Below are positions 24,206-34,239 of a stretch of 64,000 bases of DNA, one piece after another. The translations under genes and the position numbers were made by a program. Positions within the stretch are counted from its first letter, which is position 1, and each line of letters opens with the position of its first letter. The DNA comes from Paenibacillus sp. FSL M7-0420 (GTDB lineage Bacteria > Bacillota > Bacilli > Paenibacillales > Paenibacillaceae). The stretch spans positions 6,944,001 through 7,008,000 of the forward strand of contig NZ_JBBOCJ010000001.1 in NCBI RefSeq assembly GCF_038002345.1, in the 5' to 3' direction. Below the pieces are notes generated by a model. That model saw only the letters and a program-made list of their open reading frames with translations. It had not been told where the DNA came from and did not search any database.

Positions 24206-25363
24206 TTATGGAGCCTTATAGGAGTAAGCCAGCAGTGCCATCAGGTTATCAAAAGAGTATGCCTGCCCGGAGGCAGGATCACCGAAGCCGCCATATAGCG
24301 GACTCACAGGATCTGTCACCCTGAATTCATTCATCCGTTCTATACTGGACTGATAGAGGTCACCATCCTCCAGCACGGCTCCAATCATGGCTGTGAGCGC
24401 ATAGACCGCTGTTGAACGGATATCATTAGCCGGCTTGCCCTCACGTGTATATTGTCCGAATAAGGTTCCCGCTGCGACCTGAGCTTTGATGAAGCTGATG
24501 CTGGCCGGCTTTTGACGGCCGGTCTCTGCCAGATGAAGAATAGTCAGCAGAGATTCTACCGAGTTGATGCCTTCAGAGCTGTACTGTCCGCTCTGGTAAT
24601 CGAAGCGGGTCTCATAGAATGGAAAAGAATCGGACAAATATCCCTCCTCCAAAATACCGCTCATATTCTTCAGCAAATTCTCTTTTAATTCGCTAGATAT
24701 CGACAATTTCTGCAATACACTCAGATCAATATAACACAAAGTTACGAAGCTGTTGACCACTTTCAAATAATTGTCATAGATGTCATAAATGTAATCTTTT
24801 TTAGTATTGTTTTTATAGAAACGTTCTCCATATTTATCAGCTTCTCTGGTATATTCCGGCTGGCTAAATGCCTGCCCTGCCTCATATAACGCTCCGATCA
24901 TCCGCAGGTCATCCACCGCTGCATTCACGGGATAACGCTTCTGCTGCCTGGGACTGTAGCGGTAGCTGAAGCCGCCCTCCATATCGAAGGTTCTGCGGGC
25001 CGTCTTCCACTGCCGGTCGAACAGCTCCTGATTGCGGGTCCTGACAGCAGTCTCCATCAGAAGAGACGCGGACTCGCTCAGAATCTCATGGCCTGTAGCC
25101 ACCTCTGCCGCTTCAGAGGTCTCCTTCAGATTCGTATATACGCCATCGGGTCCTGTAAGCTGCGTATTTATGAAATGAAATAATTCCCGCTGTTCCACTG
25201 TAGGCTCAAGCTGCGGCGCTTCATCCGGCCGTGTAGTCCCTGCGGGAGAGACTGCCGGAGTATAGACGGGAGAGGATGGCGCCGGTCCGGCCTGATTGCC
25301 GCAGGAGGTTAGCAGGAGCAGCGACATCCCCAGAACAGCAGCCTTGCTATATCTGTTTTCCAA
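24206..25363 (-). CDS. lipoprotein with GH8-like fold (YdaJ-like)
   Basis: 385 aa. The lipobox LTSC (Cys 21) predicts a lipoprotein. The rest is helix-rich with GHEILSESASLLM near residue 92, resembling the catalytic-Glu region of GH8-type (alpha/alpha)6 hydrolases, as in YdaJ and Listeria PssZ. It probably trims or releases the polymer made by the operon. The TTG start follows AGGATGTG. It is the first gene of the operon. Confidence 0.72.
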   Translation of the reverse strand: MENRYSKAAVLGMSLLLLTSCGNQAGPAPSSPVYTPAVSPAGTTRPDEAPQLEPTVEQRELFHFINTQLTGPDGVYTNLKETSEAAEVATGHEILSESASLLMETAVRTRNQELFDRQWKTARRTFDMEGGFSYRYSPRQQKRYPVNAAVDDLRMIGALYEAGQAFSQPEYTREADKYGERFYKNNTKKDYIYDIYDNYLKVVNSFVTLCYIDLSVLQKLSISSELKENLLKNMSGILEEGYLSDSFPFYETRFDYQSGQYSSEGINSVESLLTILHLAETGRQKPASISFIKAQVAAGTLFGQYTREGKPANDIRSTAVYALTAMIGAVLEDGDLYQSSIERMNEFRVTDPVSPLYGGFGDPASGQAYSFDNLMALLAYSYKAP

Positions 25364-25459: not shown

Positions 25460-25492
25460 CGCTATCACATATTTCTCCTTTTCCGCCAGAAA

Positions 25493-25530
25493 AAGAGCCG
25501 CTCCATGTCTTAACGACTGGAACAGCTCTT
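25493..25530 (-). terminator. rho-independent terminator of the channel operon
   Basis: AAGAGC pairs with GCTCTT with a partly paired interior, followed by TTTTTC on the minus strand. It lies just past the K+ channel gene and isolates that operon from the exopolysaccharide operon. Confidence 0.8.
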
Positions 25531-25555
25531 ATGAATGCTTAGGTATTCTCTATCT

Positions 25556-26572
25556 CTAGCTCTCTTTAATTCTCCGGTACGTAGCCTCATCAGCGACGAT
25601 GTAGAGTCTGGCGTCTGCCGGAATCGCCTGGTCAAGCTTACGGTTAATGCCCAGATCGCCGCGGTCGGACAACAGGGTCGCCCCCTGGCGCAGCAGATCC
25701 TGAAAGGCCTCTCCATAGGTTGTCCAGCCGCTGCGGCGGGGAATCTCAAAGATATCATCCCCGTGCTCGCGGCTGAGCAGCTGAGTAATGACCTCTGAAT
25801 TGCCCTCCTGCAGGGCAGAGCGGACGGCCAGTCTGGAGATGGCATCATGGGAGAGCACGAACTCGTTCACCTGCACATGCTTGAAGTTCTGAATGTTCTT
25901 CTCCTGCATAATCTCTACGGTAGTATGTACCTGCGGGGCAATCCGCTCAATGCTGGAAGCAATCAACAGCGACTTGCCGTCGCTTAAGGAAGCTTCGTCA
26001 ATACGGGTGTCGCTGAACACAATCGCTGCTCTGGCGCTCCCGATATTCGCCTTCAGCAGAATGTCATCGCTCGCAGCATCGCCGCTGATGAAGTGGACCT
26101 GCTCCATGGATTCCAGCGGATGCCGTCCGTTCTCATCAATAATGACTACTTTGCATTCCCCGTCGTAACACAGAATCTCATCCACTGCCGCCTGTGTCTT
26201 GCGGTTCCAGTTAATCAGCACCACATGATTGTGCCCGTGAAAGGTCAAGGTTCCGGCTCCTCTCCTGCGCTGCATCTCGCCCATGGCATCGATAATCTTG
26301 CCGATCACCAGACTGAGCAGACCGATGCCAAAGATATATAAGAAAATCGTAAACACCTTGCCGGTGACGGTAGCGGCAAAGTAATCGCCATACCCGACGG
26401 TAGCCATGGTGGTCATTACCCAATAAAAGGCGTTGAACCAGCTATGAAACGTATCCGGCTCCAGCAGGAAGGCGATGGTTGCACTTAGAAGAATGAAGGC
26501 CAGAATAATAAAGGCAATGGACTTCTTCTTGAGATGAAGCAGCTTACCGGATAATTGGATTAGAAAATGCAA
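25556..26572 (-). CDS. K+ channel with RCK/TrkA-N domain (YugO-like)
   Basis: 338 aa. Two helices (about 19-38 and 70-95) flank a pore with the potassium selectivity filter TVGYGD (58-63), followed by a cytoplasmic Rossmann RCK domain starting at NHVVLINWNRKTQA. The Rossmann fold would bind a nucleotide and gate the channel. The start is TTG with AGGGATGA upstream. It is the last gene of the stress operon, 95 bp after the DUF350 gene. Channels of this type accompany DUF350/ATP-grasp genes in other bacteria. Confidence 0.88.
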   Translation of the reverse strand: MHFLIQLSGKLLHLKKKSIAFIILAFILLSATIAFLLEPDTFHSWFNAFYWVMTTMATVGYGDYFAATVTGKVFTIFLYIFGIGLLSLVIGKIIDAMGEMQRRRGAGTLTFHGHNHVVLINWNRKTQAAVDEILCYDGECKVVIIDENGRHPLESMEQVHFISGDAASDDILLKANIGSARAAIVFSDTRIDEASLSDGKSLLIASSIERIAPQVHTTVEIMQEKNIQNFKHVQVNEFVLSHDAISRLAVRSALQEGNSEVITQLLSREHGDDIFEIPRRSGWTTYGEAFQDLLRQGATLLSDRGDLGINRKLDQAIPADARLYIVADEATYRRIKES

Positions 26573-26667
26573 TGCTCATCCCTGCCTCCCGGGTGAATTG
26601 AGCCGGCGGGCAGCAGCCTGCACCAAGTCCCTCGCGGAGCGCAGCCGCTGACCGCATGCCAGGCTTT

Positions 26668-27060
26668 CTAGATAATCAGACTGCTGACCGCGAAGGCCGT
26701 CCCGATGAACACCATGCAGAGCATGACGCCGACCGCAACATTTCCCTTCTCCAGCTGCTCTGAAATCCGGAAGCCGGGCGTGAACAGCTCGAAGATCCAG
26801 TAAGAAGCGATCAGGCAGACATACCCCACAGCGAACCAGAGCATCATGAACCAGATGGAGGTATTTGTGTAGGCGGCCACGCCTAGAATGACCGCCGTAG
26901 CCAGGAACTTGCCGCCGAACGCCAGGCCTACCGCAACATTTCCCTTTTTCAGCTCCTCCATATCCTTGAAAGGAGTCATGAGCGCAAAGATCACCATACC
27001 CAGCACCTGAAGCAGAACAATGGTCAGAATACTAACCACCAGATTAATTACGATCGTCAT
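26668..27060 (-). CDS. DUF350 family membrane protein (YjfL-like)
   Basis: 130 aa with four helices arranged as an internal repeat: each half carries the DUF350 signature (LKKGNVAVGLAF and LEKGNVAVGVML). E. coli YjfL has the same fold and genomic partners. Its role is unknown, but it regularly travels with YjfC/YgiC-type ATP-grasp ligases. The ATG overlaps the TGA of the lipoprotein gene, so translation is coupled. Confidence 0.88.
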   Translation of the reverse strand: MTIVINLVVSILTIVLLQVLGMVIFALMTPFKDMEELKKGNVAVGLAFGGKFLATAVILGVAAYTNTSIWFMMLWFAVGYVCLIASYWIFELFTPGFRISEQLEKGNVAVGVMLCMVFIGTAFAVSSLII

Positions 27061-27713
27061 TTAGCCCACCCCCGAAATTTCGCATAGGCCGAATCATAGT
27101 CGGCGAAATCATGTACTTCCTCCAGCACCACTGAGACTTTCTTCTGCTTCTCCAGCGCGGTATAGCGCTTGTCGTCAATCGGCTGCTTGATCCGGTTGCC
27201 GGAAGGCAGCTCCAGCACTGCGAAATTTCTGGTCTTGCTCTGGTATTCCGTCTTGTACACGCCAACCAGGTCCACATCCGTTGTGATGGACACCTTGAGA
27301 TTAGCCAGATCCTCTGTGGCCGCCTTCTGGTCGGCGTAAGACTTAAGTGTCGTCCAGGCGGACAGCTTAATCTCATTCTTCTGGTCAGCGTCCGTTATCA
27401 GCTCGGCATCCATGAACTGGAGCGTCCAGACGGTGTCGCCTGTAGCATAATTCCCGTCGTTGGGAAGCAGCTCATTATCCGGCAATATAGTCATATCGCT
27501 GCCGACCAGATCGCCAACCTTGCCTTCCACCACCCGGTAATCCCATGGTACACGCGATACACTATCCGACGTATCAGTGCCGGTATGAAATACACTGCCG
27601 CCGCTGTTCGCTGAGCATGCACTCAGCACCATAACCGCCAGCAGCAGCACTGTAGTCAGCAGGGTGCCCCGGGCTCTGCGCCCGGCAGCATGCCCCTCTC
27701 TATCCTTGAACAT
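27057..27713 (-). CDS. lipoprotein of the DUF350/ATP-grasp operon
   Basis: About 219 aa. Signal peptide with lipobox LSAC (Cys about 33), then a soluble extracytoplasmic domain of about 180 residues of a family I do not recognise. The ATG at 27713 sits 7 nt after AGGGGG; a TTG two codons earlier (27719) is an alternative. It overlaps both neighbours. It may link the cell-surface side to the membrane DUF350 protein. Confidence 0.7.
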   Translation of the reverse strand: MFKDREGHAAGRRARGTLLTTVLLLAVMVLSACSANSGGSVFHTGTDTSDSVSRVPWDYRVVEGKVGDLVGSDMTILPDNELLPNDGNYATGDTVWTLQFMDAELITDADQKNEIKLSAWTTLKSYADQKAATEDLANLKVSITTDVDLVGVYKTEYQSKTRNFAVLELPSGNRIKQPIDDKRYTALEKQKKVSVVLEEVHDFADYDSAYAKFRGWAK

Positions 27714-28923
27714 CTTCAAGCCCCCTCACTCCTAGCGCGATAAAATGACTGGCATTGCCTGTAATCGGCCCGCCGGCCCGGCCAAGCAGCCCGCAGGGCG
27801 TTCCGTTAATGACGAACATGCCGGTCAGCAGGTGCAGCTCGCCCTCCGCCGTCATGATCCGGGCCATTTCTGCCCTTTTCTGATAGACCACTGGGAAGAG
27901 CTGGCTGCTGTCGTAGCCTTCCTCGTCTTCGATCTCAAGCGCGCCGCTGTCATCAAAGATCCGTACAGATCCGCCTTCGCGGCCGAATACAGATTTGGAT
28001 ACAAAGCTCTCTGAGAACACTGCCTTATTGTACGTCGGCAGGATGTACCGGGAGATTGCCTCGCGTTCCGGCTCTGTGAACAGCAGGCCAAGCTCGTACA
28101 TTCCCCAGACAGCGGCCATCAGCCCCTTGGACTGGAGAATGATGCTATGCGGTCCGTTGAACAGCTGGAGCTTCCCGCTCTCAATGGCGTAGGCCAGAGC
28201 CTCGCCTCCTTCATCTACGGCCATCCACTCCTTCGGATACAGCGCGAACATCCGCTCTATGATCCGGTTCTCTCCGTCCTTGACCACACCCTCATCAATC
28301 CACAAATCCAGGCAATCGACACAGCGGACATCCAGTCCGCTATGCGCGGCCAGAGCCTCAATCGTTCCGCTGTCCTCCTCATGGCTGCCATAATCCACAC
28401 AGGCTACCGTGTCGGGGCGCTCCACGCCCCAGGCTGCAGCAAGCTGCTGCTTCATGGCCGCATTCGCGCTTCCGACGCCTGCTTCCGCGCAGATCCACGG
28501 CGTTGCAATGGAGGCCTCCACATAGCCGGTCGGAGTATCCGCATTCAGCTCCAGCAGCTTAATCGTACCATCACCTGCCACGGCAAAATCGAACCGGGCA
28601 TACCGGCTGATCAGTCCCGGCTCCGGCAACGGACAGTCATCCAGCATCTGCCACAGCACCGGCGGAATCCCAAGCAGGTCGTACAGGTCATGTCTGAGAT
28701 GGACATAACGCACGGCCTTATCCAGAATCGCCCAGAGCGCGGCGGCGGCTTCCTTCAATTCCTGATAGGTCTCGCTGCGCATCACAGCCACCGCATCCAG
28801 CCAGTATTCCTCGTCCTCCAGATCGGCCCAGGTGAAGCCCAGCTCACGCAGCCGCTCAACCCGGGGAGCGCGCTCCAGACCGGACTGGTCTATATACTCG
28901 AATGCCTGCTCCGCCCGGATCAT
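27700..28923 (-). CDS. glutathionylspermidine synthase-like ATP-grasp ligase
   Basis: 407 aa with the YgiC/YjfC signatures: RYARFDFAVAGDGTIKLLELNADTPTG at the ATP-grasp metal-binding region and GRAGGPITGNASHFI at the C-terminus. The GspS amidase domain is absent, as in YgiC and YjfC. The family joins a carboxylate to an amine with ATP; glutathione is not expected in this lineage, so the natural substrate is likely a peptide or a protein tail. ATG and TGA overlap with the Ser/Gly-rich gene before it. Confidence 0.85.
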   Translation of the reverse strand: MIRAEQAFEYIDQSGLERAPRVERLRELGFTWADLEDEEYWLDAVAVMRSETYQELKEAAAALWAILDKAVRYVHLRHDLYDLLGIPPVLWQMLDDCPLPEPGLISRYARFDFAVAGDGTIKLLELNADTPTGYVEASIATPWICAEAGVGSANAAMKQQLAAAWGVERPDTVACVDYGSHEEDSGTIEALAAHSGLDVRCVDCLDLWIDEGVVKDGENRIIERMFALYPKEWMAVDEGGEALAYAIESGKLQLFNGPHSIILQSKGLMAAVWGMYELGLLFTEPEREAISRYILPTYNKAVFSESFVSKSVFGREGGSVRIFDDSGALEIEDEEGYDSSQLFPVVYQKRAEMARIMTAEGELHLLTGMFVINGTPCGLLGRAGGPITGNASHFIALGVRGLEDVQG

Positions 28924-29603
28924 CCGCCGAACCCGCTCTTGCCGGAGCGCACCGAGCTTTTGCCGGAGCTTTTAGAGCCGGATTTGGATTTGCTCGAACC
29001 CAGCCCGCTGGAGGTGCCGCCGATACCGCCCGATTTGGAAGAGGTATTCCTTCTGGTAATGGAGCCGGTGGATGAAGTTGAGGTCTTCGGCTTCACCACC
29101 GAGCCGGCCACCGGCTTGTTCTGGAATCGTCCGCTATTATAGGAAGGCGGCTTATAGGTATTGCGTGTACCACCATAATAAGTAGGCCGGTCATTGTACC
29201 AGCCTCTGGAAGAGTAGAACGAACCGCTATTGAAGAGCATGTGATACAGAAGCACATCATCCCAGCCGAAGCCCGAGTTATACCCGCCGTAGTTGTTGAT
29301 TACCGTCGTGCCGCCAGAGGTTACTGCCCCTTGCCCTTCCTGGACCTTCTCTTCCTGGTCTTCCGGATATGGAATACTCCAGTCTACATTCTTGTCGAAG
29401 TATTGCTTAACCTCCTCGGTAGACCAGGAGACCAGCTTAGGCTCCTCACCGCCTGTGCCGCTTGCGCCTGCACCTCCGGGAATGAATAACGCGTTAGCCA
29501 GCAGGGCAATGCCGAGCGAGGTGGATAATACGCGGACCGGTTTGCCGTCCGGGGTGAACAGCCTGCTGACTGCGGGTTCTTTAGCATTTTCGTCTTTTGC
29601 CAA
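28920..29603 (-). CDS. Ser/Gly-rich secreted or membrane protein, possible ligase substrate
   Basis: About 227 aa. One hydrophobic helix near the N-terminus (LSTSLGIALLANALFIPG), an aromatic region rich in Tyr and Asn, and a tail of Ser, Gly and Lys ending in SGKSGFGG. Size, layout and gene order recall YgiB/YjfM (DUF1190), which pair with YgiC/YjfC ligases, although I see no direct sequence match. The TTG at 29603 has AAAGGAGG 7 nt upstream; the ATG at 29630 is an alternative. The tail is a candidate target of the ATP-grasp enzyme. Confidence 0.65.
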   Translation of the reverse strand: MAKDENAKEPAVSRLFTPDGKPVRVLSTSLGIALLANALFIPGGAGASGTGGEEPKLVSWSTEEVKQYFDKNVDWSIPYPEDQEEKVQEGQGAVTSGGTTVINNYGGYNSGFGWDDVLLYHMLFNSGSFYSSRGWYNDRPTYYGGTRNTYKPPSYNSGRFQNKPVAGSVVKPKTSTSSTGSITRRNTSSKSGGIGGTSSGLGSSKSKSGSKSSGKSSVRSGKSGFGG

Positions 29604-29632
29604 CTTGGGGCCTCCTTTCCTGGTATTCATCC

Positions 29633-29851
29633 TTAACCTTCCGTACGCATAGGAACCAGCAGAAGCTCCAGCTTCCCTTCATCCACATTCAGCCTTCCCT
29701 CTACCGCCTCGAACTCACGGCCGCCAACGACAATATAATTGACATGCTCAAGCGCCGTAACCATATTCATGCTCCAGACGCGCTCTTCAATCATTTGCAG
29801 GTCGCCTTCAGGCAGCTTCTCGAACAGGATGACCTTCAACCCGTTATCCAT
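29633..29851 (-). CDS. 72-aa protein of unknown function, first gene of stress operon
   Basis: A 72-aa soluble acidic protein, mostly beta with one helix (ALEHVNYIVVGGREFEAVEGRLNVDEGKLELLLVP). GAGGAGATGGAGTAGA precedes the ATG. It sits about 30 nt after the predicted ECF promoter start and ends three nt before the next reading frame, so it is part of the operon. I do not recognise a family. Confidence 0.65.
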   Translation of the reverse strand: MDNGLKVILFEKLPEGDLQMIEERVWSMNMVTALEHVNYIVVGGREFEAVEGRLNVDEGKLELLLVPMRTEG

Positions 29852-29889
29852 TCTACTCCATCTCCTCTTGAATACTCGTATGCTTCTGA

Positions 29890-29915
29890 TACGCTGCTAT
29901 GACTCTTTCGTTTCA
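29890..29915 (-). promoter_or_regulatory. ECF (sigma-W type) promoter
   Basis: On the minus strand TGAAAC (29910-29915) and CGTA (29890-29893) are separated by exactly 16 nt, matching the B. subtilis sigma-W consensus. Transcription would start near 29883, about 30 nt before the 72-aa gene. Sigma-W and its relatives answer cell-envelope stress. Confidence 0.75.
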
Positions 29916-29996: not shown

Positions 29997-31124
29997 TTAC
30001 AATACCTTCTGGACCCAGCTGTCCATGACCTGGTCAGGGCGGATGCCCAGCTCATTCTCCAGGAGCTCCTTGTATTTATCGTAGTGTGTCCTGAATCCGA
30101 TGAAATCCCCCAGGTCGGCGTAACTTCGCAGAATCAGCCTGCAGAGCTGGTCGGAATAAGGATCGGCTGCCTGCAGCTCCAGCAGCCTCTCCAGTGCCAG
30201 CCGGGGCCGCCCGGAGGACAGCTCATATTCGGCGGAATGCAGCGCCATGCGGATATACCGGACCTGCAGCTCCTTGCGCCGGATCTCTGCCCAGTCGTAA
30301 TGATGCTCCTGCAGGTAGTCTCCACGGTACAGCTTCAATATCTTTTCCCGGCGCAGCCATTCCTCTTCTGACTCCACAGGCGTACCGGCATAGCCCAGCT
30401 CGAACTCCTCCACATCCAGCAGCACCTGCTCCTTGGTCAGCCTGTACCGCTCCTGCGAGAATTCGACGAGCACCTCCATATCCCAGGCCTTCAGCAGCTT
30501 GCGGATATGGTATACCGTAGTATGCAGGTTCGTTACGGCCTTCTCGGGCTTGAAATCGGGCCAGACGAGATCCACAATGGTGTCCTTGAGTATCCACTGG
30601 CCGCGGTTATGCAGCAGCAGGGCGAAGACCTCCTGCGCCTTGCTGGTTCTCCACTGCATTTTGCGCCCCGGCTCCGTGCTGTCTGTGAATTCAAGCCGGT
30701 GGAAGCAGAGGATTGACAGCTCCTTGACAGGCGCCGGTGTAGGCGGCATCTTCACTTCAGGACTCTCCTTGCCGACTTCCAGCCGCTCAAGGGTTTTGCT
30801 TAACCGCTGGGAGGTCACCGGCTTCAGCAAATAATCAGCTGCATTGAGTTCAAAGGCTTCGATCGCATACTCGCTGTATGCGGTAATATAGACAATCCGG
30901 GTGCTCCGGTCCATACCTGCAATGTATTCACCTGCTTCCAGCCCGTTCATCTCCGGCATCCCGATATCCAGGAAGACAATATCCGCCTTCTCCCGTTCCA
31001 GATGCGCAAGTCCCAGGCGTGCCGAGGTGAATTTCCCGGTGATTTCCACACGCCCATCCTTCAGAAGCATACGCTCCAGATGCTGCAGCGCCGGCTTCTC
31101 ATCGTCAATCAATATGGCCTTCAT
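29997..31124 (-). CDS. response regulator with winged-helix and BTAD domains
   Basis: 375 aa. A receiver domain (AILIDDEKPALQHL; Asp in IVFLDIGMPEMNG; Lys in LLKPVTS) is followed by an OmpR-type winged helix (about 150-230) and a BTAD helical repeat domain (about 235-375, ending LENELGIRPDQVM). This is the SARP-like architecture often encoded beside 7TMR-DISM hybrid kinases. It lies 43 bp after the kinase gene and is its likely partner. Confidence 0.9.
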   Translation of the reverse strand: MKAILIDDEKPALQHLERMLLKDGRVEITGKFTSARLGLAHLEREKADIVFLDIGMPEMNGLEAGEYIAGMDRSTRIVYITAYSEYAIEAFELNAADYLLKPVTSQRLSKTLERLEVGKESPEVKMPPTPAPVKELSILCFHRLEFTDSTEPGRKMQWRTSKAQEVFALLLHNRGQWILKDTIVDLVWPDFKPEKAVTNLHTTVYHIRKLLKAWDMEVLVEFSQERYRLTKEQVLLDVEEFELGYAGTPVESEEEWLRREKILKLYRGDYLQEHHYDWAEIRRKELQVRYIRMALHSAEYELSSGRPRLALERLLELQAADPYSDQLCRLILRSYADLGDFIGFRTHYDKYKELLENELGIRPDQVMDSWVQKVL

Positions 31125-31167
31125 CAGTCGGACTCACCTCCTCTTCGTTCGTAGTTCTCAAATGCCT

Positions 31168-34100
31168 TTAGGTGGGGATGGTATATGATATAGCGGTCCC
31201 TCTTCCCGGTACACTGTCAATATTCAGGCCTGCTCCATACATCTTGAGCAGGCGGTGCTGAATATTGCGCAGTCCGATGCCCCCCTCTGTCCGCTCTTCC
31301 GAGAGGACCTCCGCAATCTTCTCCGGGGTCATACCTACACCGTCATCCGTGACTGCTACCTTGAGACAGCCGGGCAGCAGTTCGACGGTCAGCCGTACCG
31401 TCCCTCCGGCCTCCTTCTGCATCAGGCCATGATTCACGGCATTCTCCACAATCGGCTGGATGCTCAGCGGCGGAACCATAGCCATCACATCTTCCGGCAC
31501 ATCGAACTCGATGTTCAGCCGTTCATCGAACCTCGCCTGCTCCAGCGCAAGATAGGATTTGACCAGTCCCAGCTCCTTCTCCATGGATACCGTCTGTCCC
31601 CGGTTCTGGAAGTCGAAGCTGCTCCGCAGGTATTGGCTGAGGTCCAGCAGCAGCTCCGTGGCCTTGTCCGGGTCCTCCGGACAGACCGAGATAATGGCAT
31701 TCAGCGCATTATATAAGAAATGCGGCTTGATCTGCGCCTGGAGGAAGGCAATCTCCGACTGGACAGATACACGGATTGACTTGCGCATATCCAGCAGGGT
31801 CTGCATCCGTGCCTTGAATTCGCGCACCTCCACCGGCTTGCTCAGATAATCATTCGCTCCGGCCTCGAAGGCTGCGAGGATATCATCTGGGCGGCTGCTC
31901 GCCATCAGTACCAGAATCGGCAGCTCGGACAAGGTGAACCGTTCACGGATGGCCTTACAGAGCAGAAGCCCGGGCATCTCCGGCATTACCCAGTCGGCAA
32001 TCACCAGATCAAGCTCAGGATGCTGCTGGATGATCTGGATCGCCTCAGCCCCGCTGCTGGCGGTAATCACAGAATGTTTATCCAGCTGCAATACGCCTAC
32101 CAGCACGCGGAGGTTAACGGGATCATTATCCACTACCAGAATGGAGCAGCAGTCTTCAGCCGGCAGCTGCACAGGTTCTTCTCCGGGAAGCGTGTACGAA
32201 GGCGCCGTCTCCCAGCCGTGAAGCTCTCCGAATTCCTCCTCCAGCAGTGCATGACTCCTCTGCAGGATCGGCTGGGTGAAGCTGAAGACGGAGCCTTGCC
32301 CCAGTTCGGAATGCACCTCAATCTCCCCGCCCGTCAGTTCTACCAGCCTCTGGGTAATGCTGAGGCCAAGCCCGTTCTCACGGTAGACCTTACTGGCGGC
32401 AGGACCGCTTGGATCATTGGCATCGAAGATCGTACGCAGACGCTCAGGCGCGATACCCTGGCCAGTGTCTGTTATGATGATGGCAACATACTCTTCTTTA
32501 ACCTCAGCAGACAGCGTTATCACGCCTCTGGGCGTATAATTCACTGCACTCGCGAGTAAATTATGCAGAATCTGAGCGAACCGCTGCTCATCCGTCTCCA
32601 GCAGCGGAAGCTGCTCCGGCAGATTCAGCCGGAATTCCAGCTGGCTGTTGCCGTAGACCTGACGGGTGACCGCCATAATGGAGGAAGCTGCCATGCGGAG
32701 ATCGACGGCCTGCCGGCGCAGGAAGAGCGCGCCGTGATTCAGCTTCGCAAAGTCCGACATATCATGGATCAGGGCTGTAAGCCGCTTGCCGGTGGAGACA
32801 ATCGTGAGCAGCTGATCCTGCTGGGCAGCGCTGATGGAGCCGGCCGTCCCCTGAGCCAGCACCTTGGCCATGTTGACGATCCCCTGCAGCGGCCTCCGCA
32901 GTTCCTGCGACGTATCGGAGATGAAGTCATCCTTCAAGCCGTCAAGCGACAAAAGGCGGCGTGAGAGCTGTTCCACTTCGCGGAAGGAAGCTGCGTATTG
33001 CCGGGTCATAAGGATCGCCTGCACGAACCCGAACAGGAGTATCTCGTAGGAGATGATGAAATAGCTGAAGGTCATGCCCATGAAGCTGACCAGATAATAG
33101 ATAATGACCACGCTCAGGCTTTCAATACTGACCATCATCAGGAACATATTCTTCGGATTGCGCCGGGTGCCCTGGACCATGGAGTAGAGCACGAAGCCCA
33201 GGCTTACCGAGCCCCAGGTCAGCAGCAGCACCTCCAGATAGCTGAACAGATAGGCCGGGACGAAGGCAGCAATCAGCAGCAGGAATGCCGTAACCAGCCT
33301 GGAGGCCTTAATTACCCCGATAGACATCGGGTAATTCACTGAATTGGCGACATAGTGCAGCAGATAATAATAGACCAGTGTAGAGGACGCGAGCTGCAGC
33401 TTGAGTATAATCTCGTAAGGGAAGCCCGGCAGTGCCGCCAGGATAAGCTTTTCGCCGTGCGTAAAAATGTAGACAAAAGCCGCTATGCAGAACAAGCCCA
33501 GATACAATGTGACCCCCCGGCTCTCCCTCACCTTGGAGAACATCAGCAGGAAGAGGGCTAGCACGAAGAATCCGATCAGTGCAGCCCCGTCTACAAACAG
33601 GGCAAATTCCCTGTGCTTCAAAATAGCGGCCTGATTACCGATCACAATCGGCTGAACGATCCCGCCTGAGGAGTAGCTATAGTTAGCTGCCTGCACAATA
33701 ATCTCCATGGTATCCCCGGTTACCGAGGCGAATCCCATAAAAGGCATGTTATTCTGTCTGCCCTCAGAGGCCGAGGCTGCCGGGGTTCCGCTGCTTCCAA
33801 TCTCCTGCCCGTTCAGATAGACCTTGCTGGCACTGCGGATGTTGCTGGTGCGCAGGCCGTAGACCATGTCTTCCCCTGGGGCAATCATCGCCTGAAGGCG
33901 GTATGTAGCATAGCCTTTGGCTCTGCGCTCGCCCTGTTCGGAGATATCGTCGTTCCACTTCCCCGGGACCTGAATCATCGTAGAGGGGGCGGGGACCTCC
34001 TTGCCAGCGTTCACCGGATGGAAATCCCCGGGCGACAGCAGTACATCCCGGTACAGCTCCCACTCTCCGTCCAGCTTCATAATCCCGTCGTGGCGGGCGT

Positions 34101-34239
34101 CCCAGGAGCGAAGGTCAATCACACCCTGCACCGCCTGCGGCCTGTCCCCCTTAATCTGATGTGTCTGGAGGACCGAGAGCAGCGGAACGATCAACACCAG
34201 CACCAGACTGCCGAGAATGCTCAGCCAATACTTTCTCAT
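31168..34239 (-). CDS. 7TMR-DISM hybrid sensor kinase with dead first core
   Basis: 1023 aa. Signal-anchor, extracellular jelly-roll domain (about 40-200), seven helices (about 205-400), a HisKA/HATPase module, a receiver (VVDNDPVNL; Asp in VIADWVMPEMPG) and a second kinase core of the His_kinase type with His in QIKPHFLYNALNAI. The first module has Gln in place of the phospho-accepting His (SQELRRPL, residue 445) and Ser in place of the N-box Asn (NLLASAVNYT). It would therefore act as a sensor, with the second core doing the phosphorylation. Confidence 0.9.
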   Translation of the reverse strand: MRKYWLSILGSLVLVLIVPLLSVLQTHQIKGDRPQAVQGVIDLRSWDARHDGIMKLDGEWELYRDVLLSPGDFHPVNAGKEVPAPSTMIQVPGKWNDDISEQGERRAKGYATYRLQAMIAPGEDMVYGLRTSNIRSASKVYLNGQEIGSSGTPAASASEGRQNNMPFMGFASVTGDTMEIIVQAANYSYSSGGIVQPIVIGNQAAILKHREFALFVDGAALIGFFVLALFLLMFSKVRESRGVTLYLGLFCIAAFVYIFTHGEKLILAALPGFPYEIILKLQLASSTLVYYYLLHYVANSVNYPMSIGVIKASRLVTAFLLLIAAFVPAYLFSYLEVLLLTWGSVSLGFVLYSMVQGTRRNPKNMFLMMVSIESLSVVIIYYLVSFMGMTFSYFIISYEILLFGFVQAILMTRQYAASFREVEQLSRRLLSLDGLKDDFISDTSQELRRPLQGIVNMAKVLAQGTAGSISAAQQDQLLTIVSTGKRLTALIHDMSDFAKLNHGALFLRRQAVDLRMAASSIMAVTRQVYGNSQLEFRLNLPEQLPLLETDEQRFAQILHNLLASAVNYTPRGVITLSAEVKEEYVAIIITDTGQGIAPERLRTIFDANDPSGPAASKVYRENGLGLSITQRLVELTGGEIEVHSELGQGSVFSFTQPILQRSHALLEEEFGELHGWETAPSYTLPGEEPVQLPAEDCCSILVVDNDPVNLRVLVGVLQLDKHSVITASSGAEAIQIIQQHPELDLVIADWVMPEMPGLLLCKAIRERFTLSELPILVLMASSRPDDILAAFEAGANDYLSKPVEVREFKARMQTLLDMRKSIRVSVQSEIAFLQAQIKPHFLYNALNAIISVCPEDPDKATELLLDLSQYLRSSFDFQNRGQTVSMEKELGLVKSYLALEQARFDERLNIEFDVPEDVMAMVPPLSIQPIVENAVNHGLMQKEAGGTVRLTVELLPGCLKVAVTDDGVGMTPEKIAEVLSEERTEGGIGLRNIQHRLLKMYGAGLNIDSVPGRGTAISYTIPT

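Follow-up and report, generated by a model that had tools for sequence, protein, structure and literature searches.

In the window analysed here, a stretch of 64,000 nucleotides from Paenibacillus sp. FSL M7-0420 (contig NZ_JBBOCJ010000001.1, forward-strand positions 6,944,001 to 7,008,000; host genome 7.67 Mb), six genes on the minus strand, named A to F in the order of transcription, form an operon around an ATP-grasp ligase (C) and a Ser/Gly-rich exported protein (B), and we think it fairly probable, judging from family membership and conservation, that B, ahead of its export, receives an amine, most likely spermidine, at its C-terminus through the ligase. The six open reading frames (ORFs) reported by a first-pass annotation made from the letters alone were all found where it had placed them, and its observation of a six-gene operon is confirmed; its interpretation of the operon as a whole, a membrane-stress system which modifies a protein tail or peptide and gates K+ flux, is partly supported.

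That annotation had made its proposal depend on conservation of the gene set in related genomes. A search with C found matches in 89 of 118 genomes of the host's family (its own included), 52 of them close (E below 1e-150), and the comparison took in 40 of the remaining 51 close ones, with about 7 kb on each side of the ligase. The set proved conserved: the genes A-B-C-D-E lie on one strand in the same order in 39 of these 40 related loci, and in the fortieth (L064) a contig end interrupts the set and B is a fragment; counted singly, A is present in 39 and B, D and E in all 40. Twenty distant ligase loci gave no match to A, B or D and a DUF350 match in every case (a weak one in L092), and at least eight of them (at least L076, L078, L079, L080, L081, L087, L090 and L093) carry a small exported Ser-rich protein ending in GG directly before the ligase.

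The proposed substrate B (28920..29630, 236 residues) has a hydrophobic export or anchor segment at about residues 33-57 (29460..29534, recognised by eye in the sequence and in the aligned relatives), a GGIGG box in its tail (residues 201-205, 29016..29030), of which G201 and G204 are invariant in 18 aligned relatives, and a C-terminal Phe-Gly-Gly (28923..28931). All 41 sequences compared end in F[GS]G (39 in FGG, two in FSG), and in the 27 loci of the operon's own type among a set of 80 named loci, B ends in GG in 24 cases and in GS in three; these 27 come partly from the same genomes as the 40, and only 18 of them entered the tail alignment. For the tail statistics 58 B sequences were used, 20 of which were left after thinning at 65% body identity. 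G at position -1, G at -2 and F at -3 each occur in 19 of these 20, and the complete FGG end in 17, the exceptions being FSG in L069, SGG in L115 and FGS in L121. Measured over the tail's own composition, the thinned set yields 2.0 bits at -1, 2.0 at -2 and 5.2 at -3, then 1.42 at -4 and 0.89 at -5, with no position from -6 to -12 above 0.77; the last three residues of B are nearly unchanged behind a freely varying linker.

The ligase C (27700..28923) belongs to the GSP_synth family (Pfam PF03738, E 1.9e-56, 192.3 bits against a cut-off of 29.3), and its only clear relatives among solved structures are YjfC (7uk6, E 2.2e-25) and YgiC (7uk8, E 2.9e-16) of E. coli, the third match being a ribosomal protein at E 0.0019; the earlier assignment to the YgiC/YjfC type therefore holds. 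Identity amounts to 27% with YgiC, 26% with YjfC and 22% with GspSA, whereas the nearest named ligase, from Paenibacillus tritici, is 94% identical. Seven residues of C (R110, D112, E125, N127, K310, R315 and R382) are common to YgiC, YjfC and GspSA in the alignment, and we take these conserved Arg, Asp, Glu, Asn and Lys residues to have a catalytic role. YgiC and YjfC are labelled peptide--spermidine ligases in RefSeq, a name that likely goes back to work of Pederick from 2023, in which, by its title, the two enzymes reportedly act on peptides. This work is cited for YgiC and YjfC in the available parts of PMC12568646 and PMC10948618, and according to the available part of PMC12506659 glutathionylspermidine is not made by YgiC. 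In the literature at hand, which lacks the main paper on these enzymes, we found no account of the conserved tail and no protein substrate named for YgiC or YjfC. In glutathione, it is the C-terminal glycine to which GspS attaches spermidine; the family of C therefore predicts a substrate with a C-terminal glycine, and by this membership C probably ligates spermidine to a peptide C-terminus. C is not itself a GspSA, despite the seven common residues: it has 407 residues with GSP_synth only and no fused amidase domain, reaches 32.8 bits with NF007801 against a cut-off of 882, and reads NADTPT where GspSA reads NADSAS. Far longer ligase-like proteins occur in L183 (861 residues, with two GSP_synth stretches) and L184 (822 residues).

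The pairing of such a ligase with such a tail extends well beyond Paenibacillus. One ligase pattern gave 588 loci, and the 80 named ones are the best of them; some lie in genomes among the 40, and 53 are outside the operon's own type. Going by record titles, we take these 53 to come from Bacillota, Pseudomonadota, Campylobacterota, Actinomycetota, Planctomycetota, Verrucomicrobiota, Nitrospirota, Bacteroidota and unplaced bins. An adjacent ORF on the same strand combines a G-[FIYLVMWA]-G box with a [GS][GS] end in 44 of the 53 (GG in 24 of these), a combination found in nine of the 1884 other ORFs of at least 80 residues in the same loci, where a [GS][GS] end at all occurs in 70. DUF350 was detected by sequence in just 24 of the 53 loci, so that in this sample the ligase and its tail partner make up the more constant unit. 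Because its extreme end is conserved and it accompanies the ligase, the tail of B can be named as candidate substrate and attachment site, and the conserved F[GS]G end together with the pairing elsewhere lends support to the earlier suggestion that a protein tail is modified.

The operon is preceded by an exact TGAAAC-N16-CGTA (29890..29915), annotated earlier as a promoter for an extracytoplasmic function (ECF) sigma factor; we take this motif to be the Bacillus sigma-W consensus. The exact elements, with a spacer of 16 or 17, recur in 20 of the 39 related loci having gene A, and seven more have them with one mismatch at a similar place; the other 12 show a weaker site (eight), a site elsewhere (one) or none within two mismatches (three). 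Shuffled stretches gave an exact site in 0.05% and a site with at most one mismatch in 3.1% of cases, and across the genome there are 26 exact sites against 15 in the reversed control. A SigW is encoded in the genome (245.5 bits, barely over the curated cut-off of 243.1), but the model has 40 matches there, and another ECF factor is therefore possible. Another operon of the genome (L220, G000:C1:3860500-3867500) also has the exact TGAAAC-N16-CGTA, beginning 71 nt upstream of where its pspA-like gene starts; DUF350 and DUF4178-like genes follow there (the pspA-like and DUF4178-like genes, unlike DUF350, being assigned by likeness to the locus L208 described below). This operon is of the classical membrane-stress kind, and with the sites before A and before the pspA-like gene, two of the three DUF350 loci of the genome have this promoter type. 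Judged by the motif and by SigW in the genome, the operon is under a sigma-W-type (envelope stress) promoter, in agreement with the envelope-stress control suggested before.

On these grounds a mechanism can be proposed. Envelope stress would switch the operon on; C would use ATP to activate the C-terminal carboxylate of B (tail GGIGG...FGG) and, in the cytoplasm, join the activated end to an amine, most likely spermidine; B would afterwards be exported, its end outside the membrane now blocked and carrying positive charge, and under stress this capped end could hold on to wall polymers or anionic lipids. The constant helpers would be A, D and the DUF350 protein, with the K+ channel as an optional addition. 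If true, bacteria would possess a small-molecule modification of protein C-termini by which envelope proteins take on a different charge under stress, and the recurrence of enzyme-tail pairs in several phyla may mean that bacteria chemically cap the ends of envelope proteins.

Several points weigh against this proposal. The side of the membrane is its weak point: B, like the DUF1190 partners of other ligases, carries an export signal by eye and C does not, so that B would have to be capped first and exported afterwards. Nor is the last residue always Gly, as 20 of the 44 paired tails end in GS, SG or SS, L177 ends in VS and L180 in AS (both with a GGIG box), and the nine misses include AS (L129), GT (L153) and LS (L167) ends, besides YGG (L139, L150) and YGS (L141, L161) ends without the box, a GGG-ended ORF further off (L156) and one locus with none (L158); a strict C-terminal Gly-Gly rule was dropped in view of partners ending in GS, SS, AS, VS, GT or LS. 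The box pattern was chosen after inspecting the tails of the same loci, the 80 loci were selected by the ligase pattern and are mutually non-independent, and three of the adjacent ORFs are confirmed as DUF1190, the gene status of the others being partly assumed. As to the amine, AdoMet (S-adenosylmethionine) decarboxylase and spermidine synthase had no match in the genome, and NspC, which is present (507 bits against a cut-off of 409), may also serve norspermidine.

The amine supply bears directly on the alternative that C modifies the tail of B with something else: a different polyamine, an amino acid, or an aminolipid (phosphatidylethanolamine, for example) that would fix the tail in the membrane. 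The two missing enzymes speak for it, as do the lack of a polyamine gene within the operon and the hydrophobic segment (by eye) that makes B an envelope protein, yet the closest solved relatives of C are peptide--spermidine ligases, and the nspC ORF overlaps the end of an ORF resembling saccharopine dehydrogenase, a pair that in the carboxyspermidine route makes spermidine or norspermidine. Spermidine is thus a plausible amine, and we regard a different one as unlikely. Slightly less unlikely, though still improbable in our view, is that the product of C is a small metabolite or a peptide amide, the tail of B being no more than a flexible spacer. GspSA acts on a small substrate, and part of the B tail is of low complexity; the loci L188 and L190, described next, also count for this view. 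In a sample of Bacillota (23 of 199 genomes, 25 loci), a same-strand [GS][GS]-ended ORF lies upstream in seven loci, one of them this operon (L186 and L187 lack the box, and in L187 the ORF is about 0.5 kb away), two more have a GGIG box with VS or AS ends, and 16 are without any tail ORF. Eleven of these 16 belong to a divergent ligase type with frames of 439-476 residues and no [GS][GS]-ended ORF within about 1.5 kb, which serves as a control for the pairing of ligase and tail; in L188 and L190, the two examined, the ligase-like gene directly follows a gene for a GCS2 gamma-glutamylcysteine ligase, which suggests small-peptide substrates for the divergent type and, for these two loci, a possible small-thiol or small-peptide pathway. 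A mere spacer, however, sits poorly with a linker that varies far more than the three final residues of the tail, and with a pairing of ligase and tail that exceeds that of ligase and DUF350.

A third view would make the operon mainly a device for K+ flux, with the ligase product or B gating the channel F. This gene is part of the operon (25556..26572) and encodes an ion channel domain (Ion_trans_2, E 3.1e-17, 62.7 bits) and a TrkA_N domain (E 2.7e-10, 41 bits), both over cut-off in Pfam; a channel-like gene also occurs in five of the 20 distant loci and in operons described in the available part of Ravi 2024 (PMC11237479). Against this, F accompanies the other five genes in just 18 of the 40 related loci and was not found within the flanks of about 7 kb in the other 22, so that a constant role for it was rejected, and no evidence tying it to the ligase was found in this analysis. 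We consider this view very improbable.

The nearest known counterparts of the operon are the E. coli pairs YgiB-YgiC and YjfM-YjfC, with which it shares the ligase family and fold, the conserved residues and an adjacent exported protein ending in GG: YgiB ends in SMGG and has a GGFG box, YjfM ends in HWGG and has a GGYG box, and these ends count in favour of the proposed capping of B. Unlike these partners, B is not a DUF1190 protein (PF06693): it matched no Pfam family at E <= 1, and hhalign gave E 0.29 with only a box-like match; no named family covers A, B or D, and the promoter is of the sigma-W type. That a GspS-like ATP-grasp ligase shares an operon with an exported protein, DUF350 and a K+ channel is known already from the available part of Ravi 2024 (PMC11237479), where the ligase of the PSP-type operons is related to glutathionylspermidine synthetase. 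The present operon differs from those described there in that none of PspA, CesT/Tir, DUF1190 and DUF2491, which mark the third group, was found among its six proteins at E <= 1, in that no polyamine gene is among the six, and in that A, B and D are other proteins. What is new is the form found in Paenibacillus, with A, B and D as constant members and with its promoter, together with the tail of B, its pairing and the two controls for it (the DUF4247 proteins and the divergent ligase type).

A comparison with DUF4247 (PF14042) serves as a control for the tail and suggests a further turn. B had no Pfam match to this family at E <= 1, and hhalign gave E 2.6e-5 with a probability of 75%; D, tried as a DUF4247 member as well, matched no Pfam family at E <= 1. 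Among 120 DUF4247 relatives listed of 425, mostly from Paenibacillus, none has a [GS][GS] end, and 107 end in RR and five in KR; the locus L206 has a GGGFG stretch and ends in GK. Neighbourhoods were read for L205 and L208, and the one operon read fully, L208, runs PspA-DUF350-DUF4178-DUF4247 and then into molybdopterin genes, with no ligase. It is our conjecture that the Arg-Arg end represents charge that is encoded rather than attached, the counterpart of a polyamine cap. Polyamine capping of C-termini by stand-alone GspS-like ligases could then be a general envelope modification, whose exported substrates, from several families, would have a recognition tail in common, marked by a GG[FIY]G box and small residues at the end, with the DUF4247 branch (no ligase in the one operon read) encoding its charge as Arg-Arg, a tentative generalisation to which we would give not quite an even chance.

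The other proteins of the operon are less readily placed. A (29633..29851, 72 residues) and the lipoprotein D (27057..27719, recognised as such by eye), both described earlier as families not recognised, indeed match, like B, no Pfam or NCBIfam family over its cut-off. The model of A shows a small beta-beta-alpha-beta-beta-beta domain with a predicted local distance difference test score (pLDDT) of 90.5, a confident prediction; A has 441 relatives at E <= 1e-3, and the 120 of these that were listed are without a Pfam domain. The latter half of A is similar to the end of a protein of about 150 residues whose gene has the corresponding position in distant loci (hhalign E 1.6e-4, probability 50%); such a protein stands in A's place in L123, L126, L127, L129, L165 and L177 and by eye resembles two copies of one motif. 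One relative of A, P0090, 69% identical, is labelled Mycobacterium tuberculosis in one source, probably through a contaminated record. D is well conserved in the alignment, and its model (pLDDT 77.9) had no confident relative. E (26668..27060) is a DUF350 membrane protein (PF03994, E 8.1e-30, 104 bits against a cut-off of 26).

Coupling of the genes is tight, and of the three ATGA overlaps reported earlier two are real (B/C at 28920-28923, D/E at 27057-27060), while C and D overlap by 14-20 nt; an alternative ATG start of D at 27713 is possible; the gaps are 2 nt between A and B and 95 nt between E and F. The terminator proposed downstream of F proved sound: a hairpin with a T run, likely a terminator, lies at 25490..25530, and the 76 nt from 25485 to 25560 fold at -32.1 kcal/mol (z -5.28), which none of 200 shuffles equalled; a generic terminator scan does not list it. 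Just 3' of it, on the minus strand (24206-25363), lies the gene for a 385-residue protein with a lipobox-like N-terminus and no family over cut-off. Upstream of the operon, also on the minus strand (29997-34239), are genes for a response regulator with a BTAD domain and a large hybrid histidine kinase, a pair that might link the operon to another signal.

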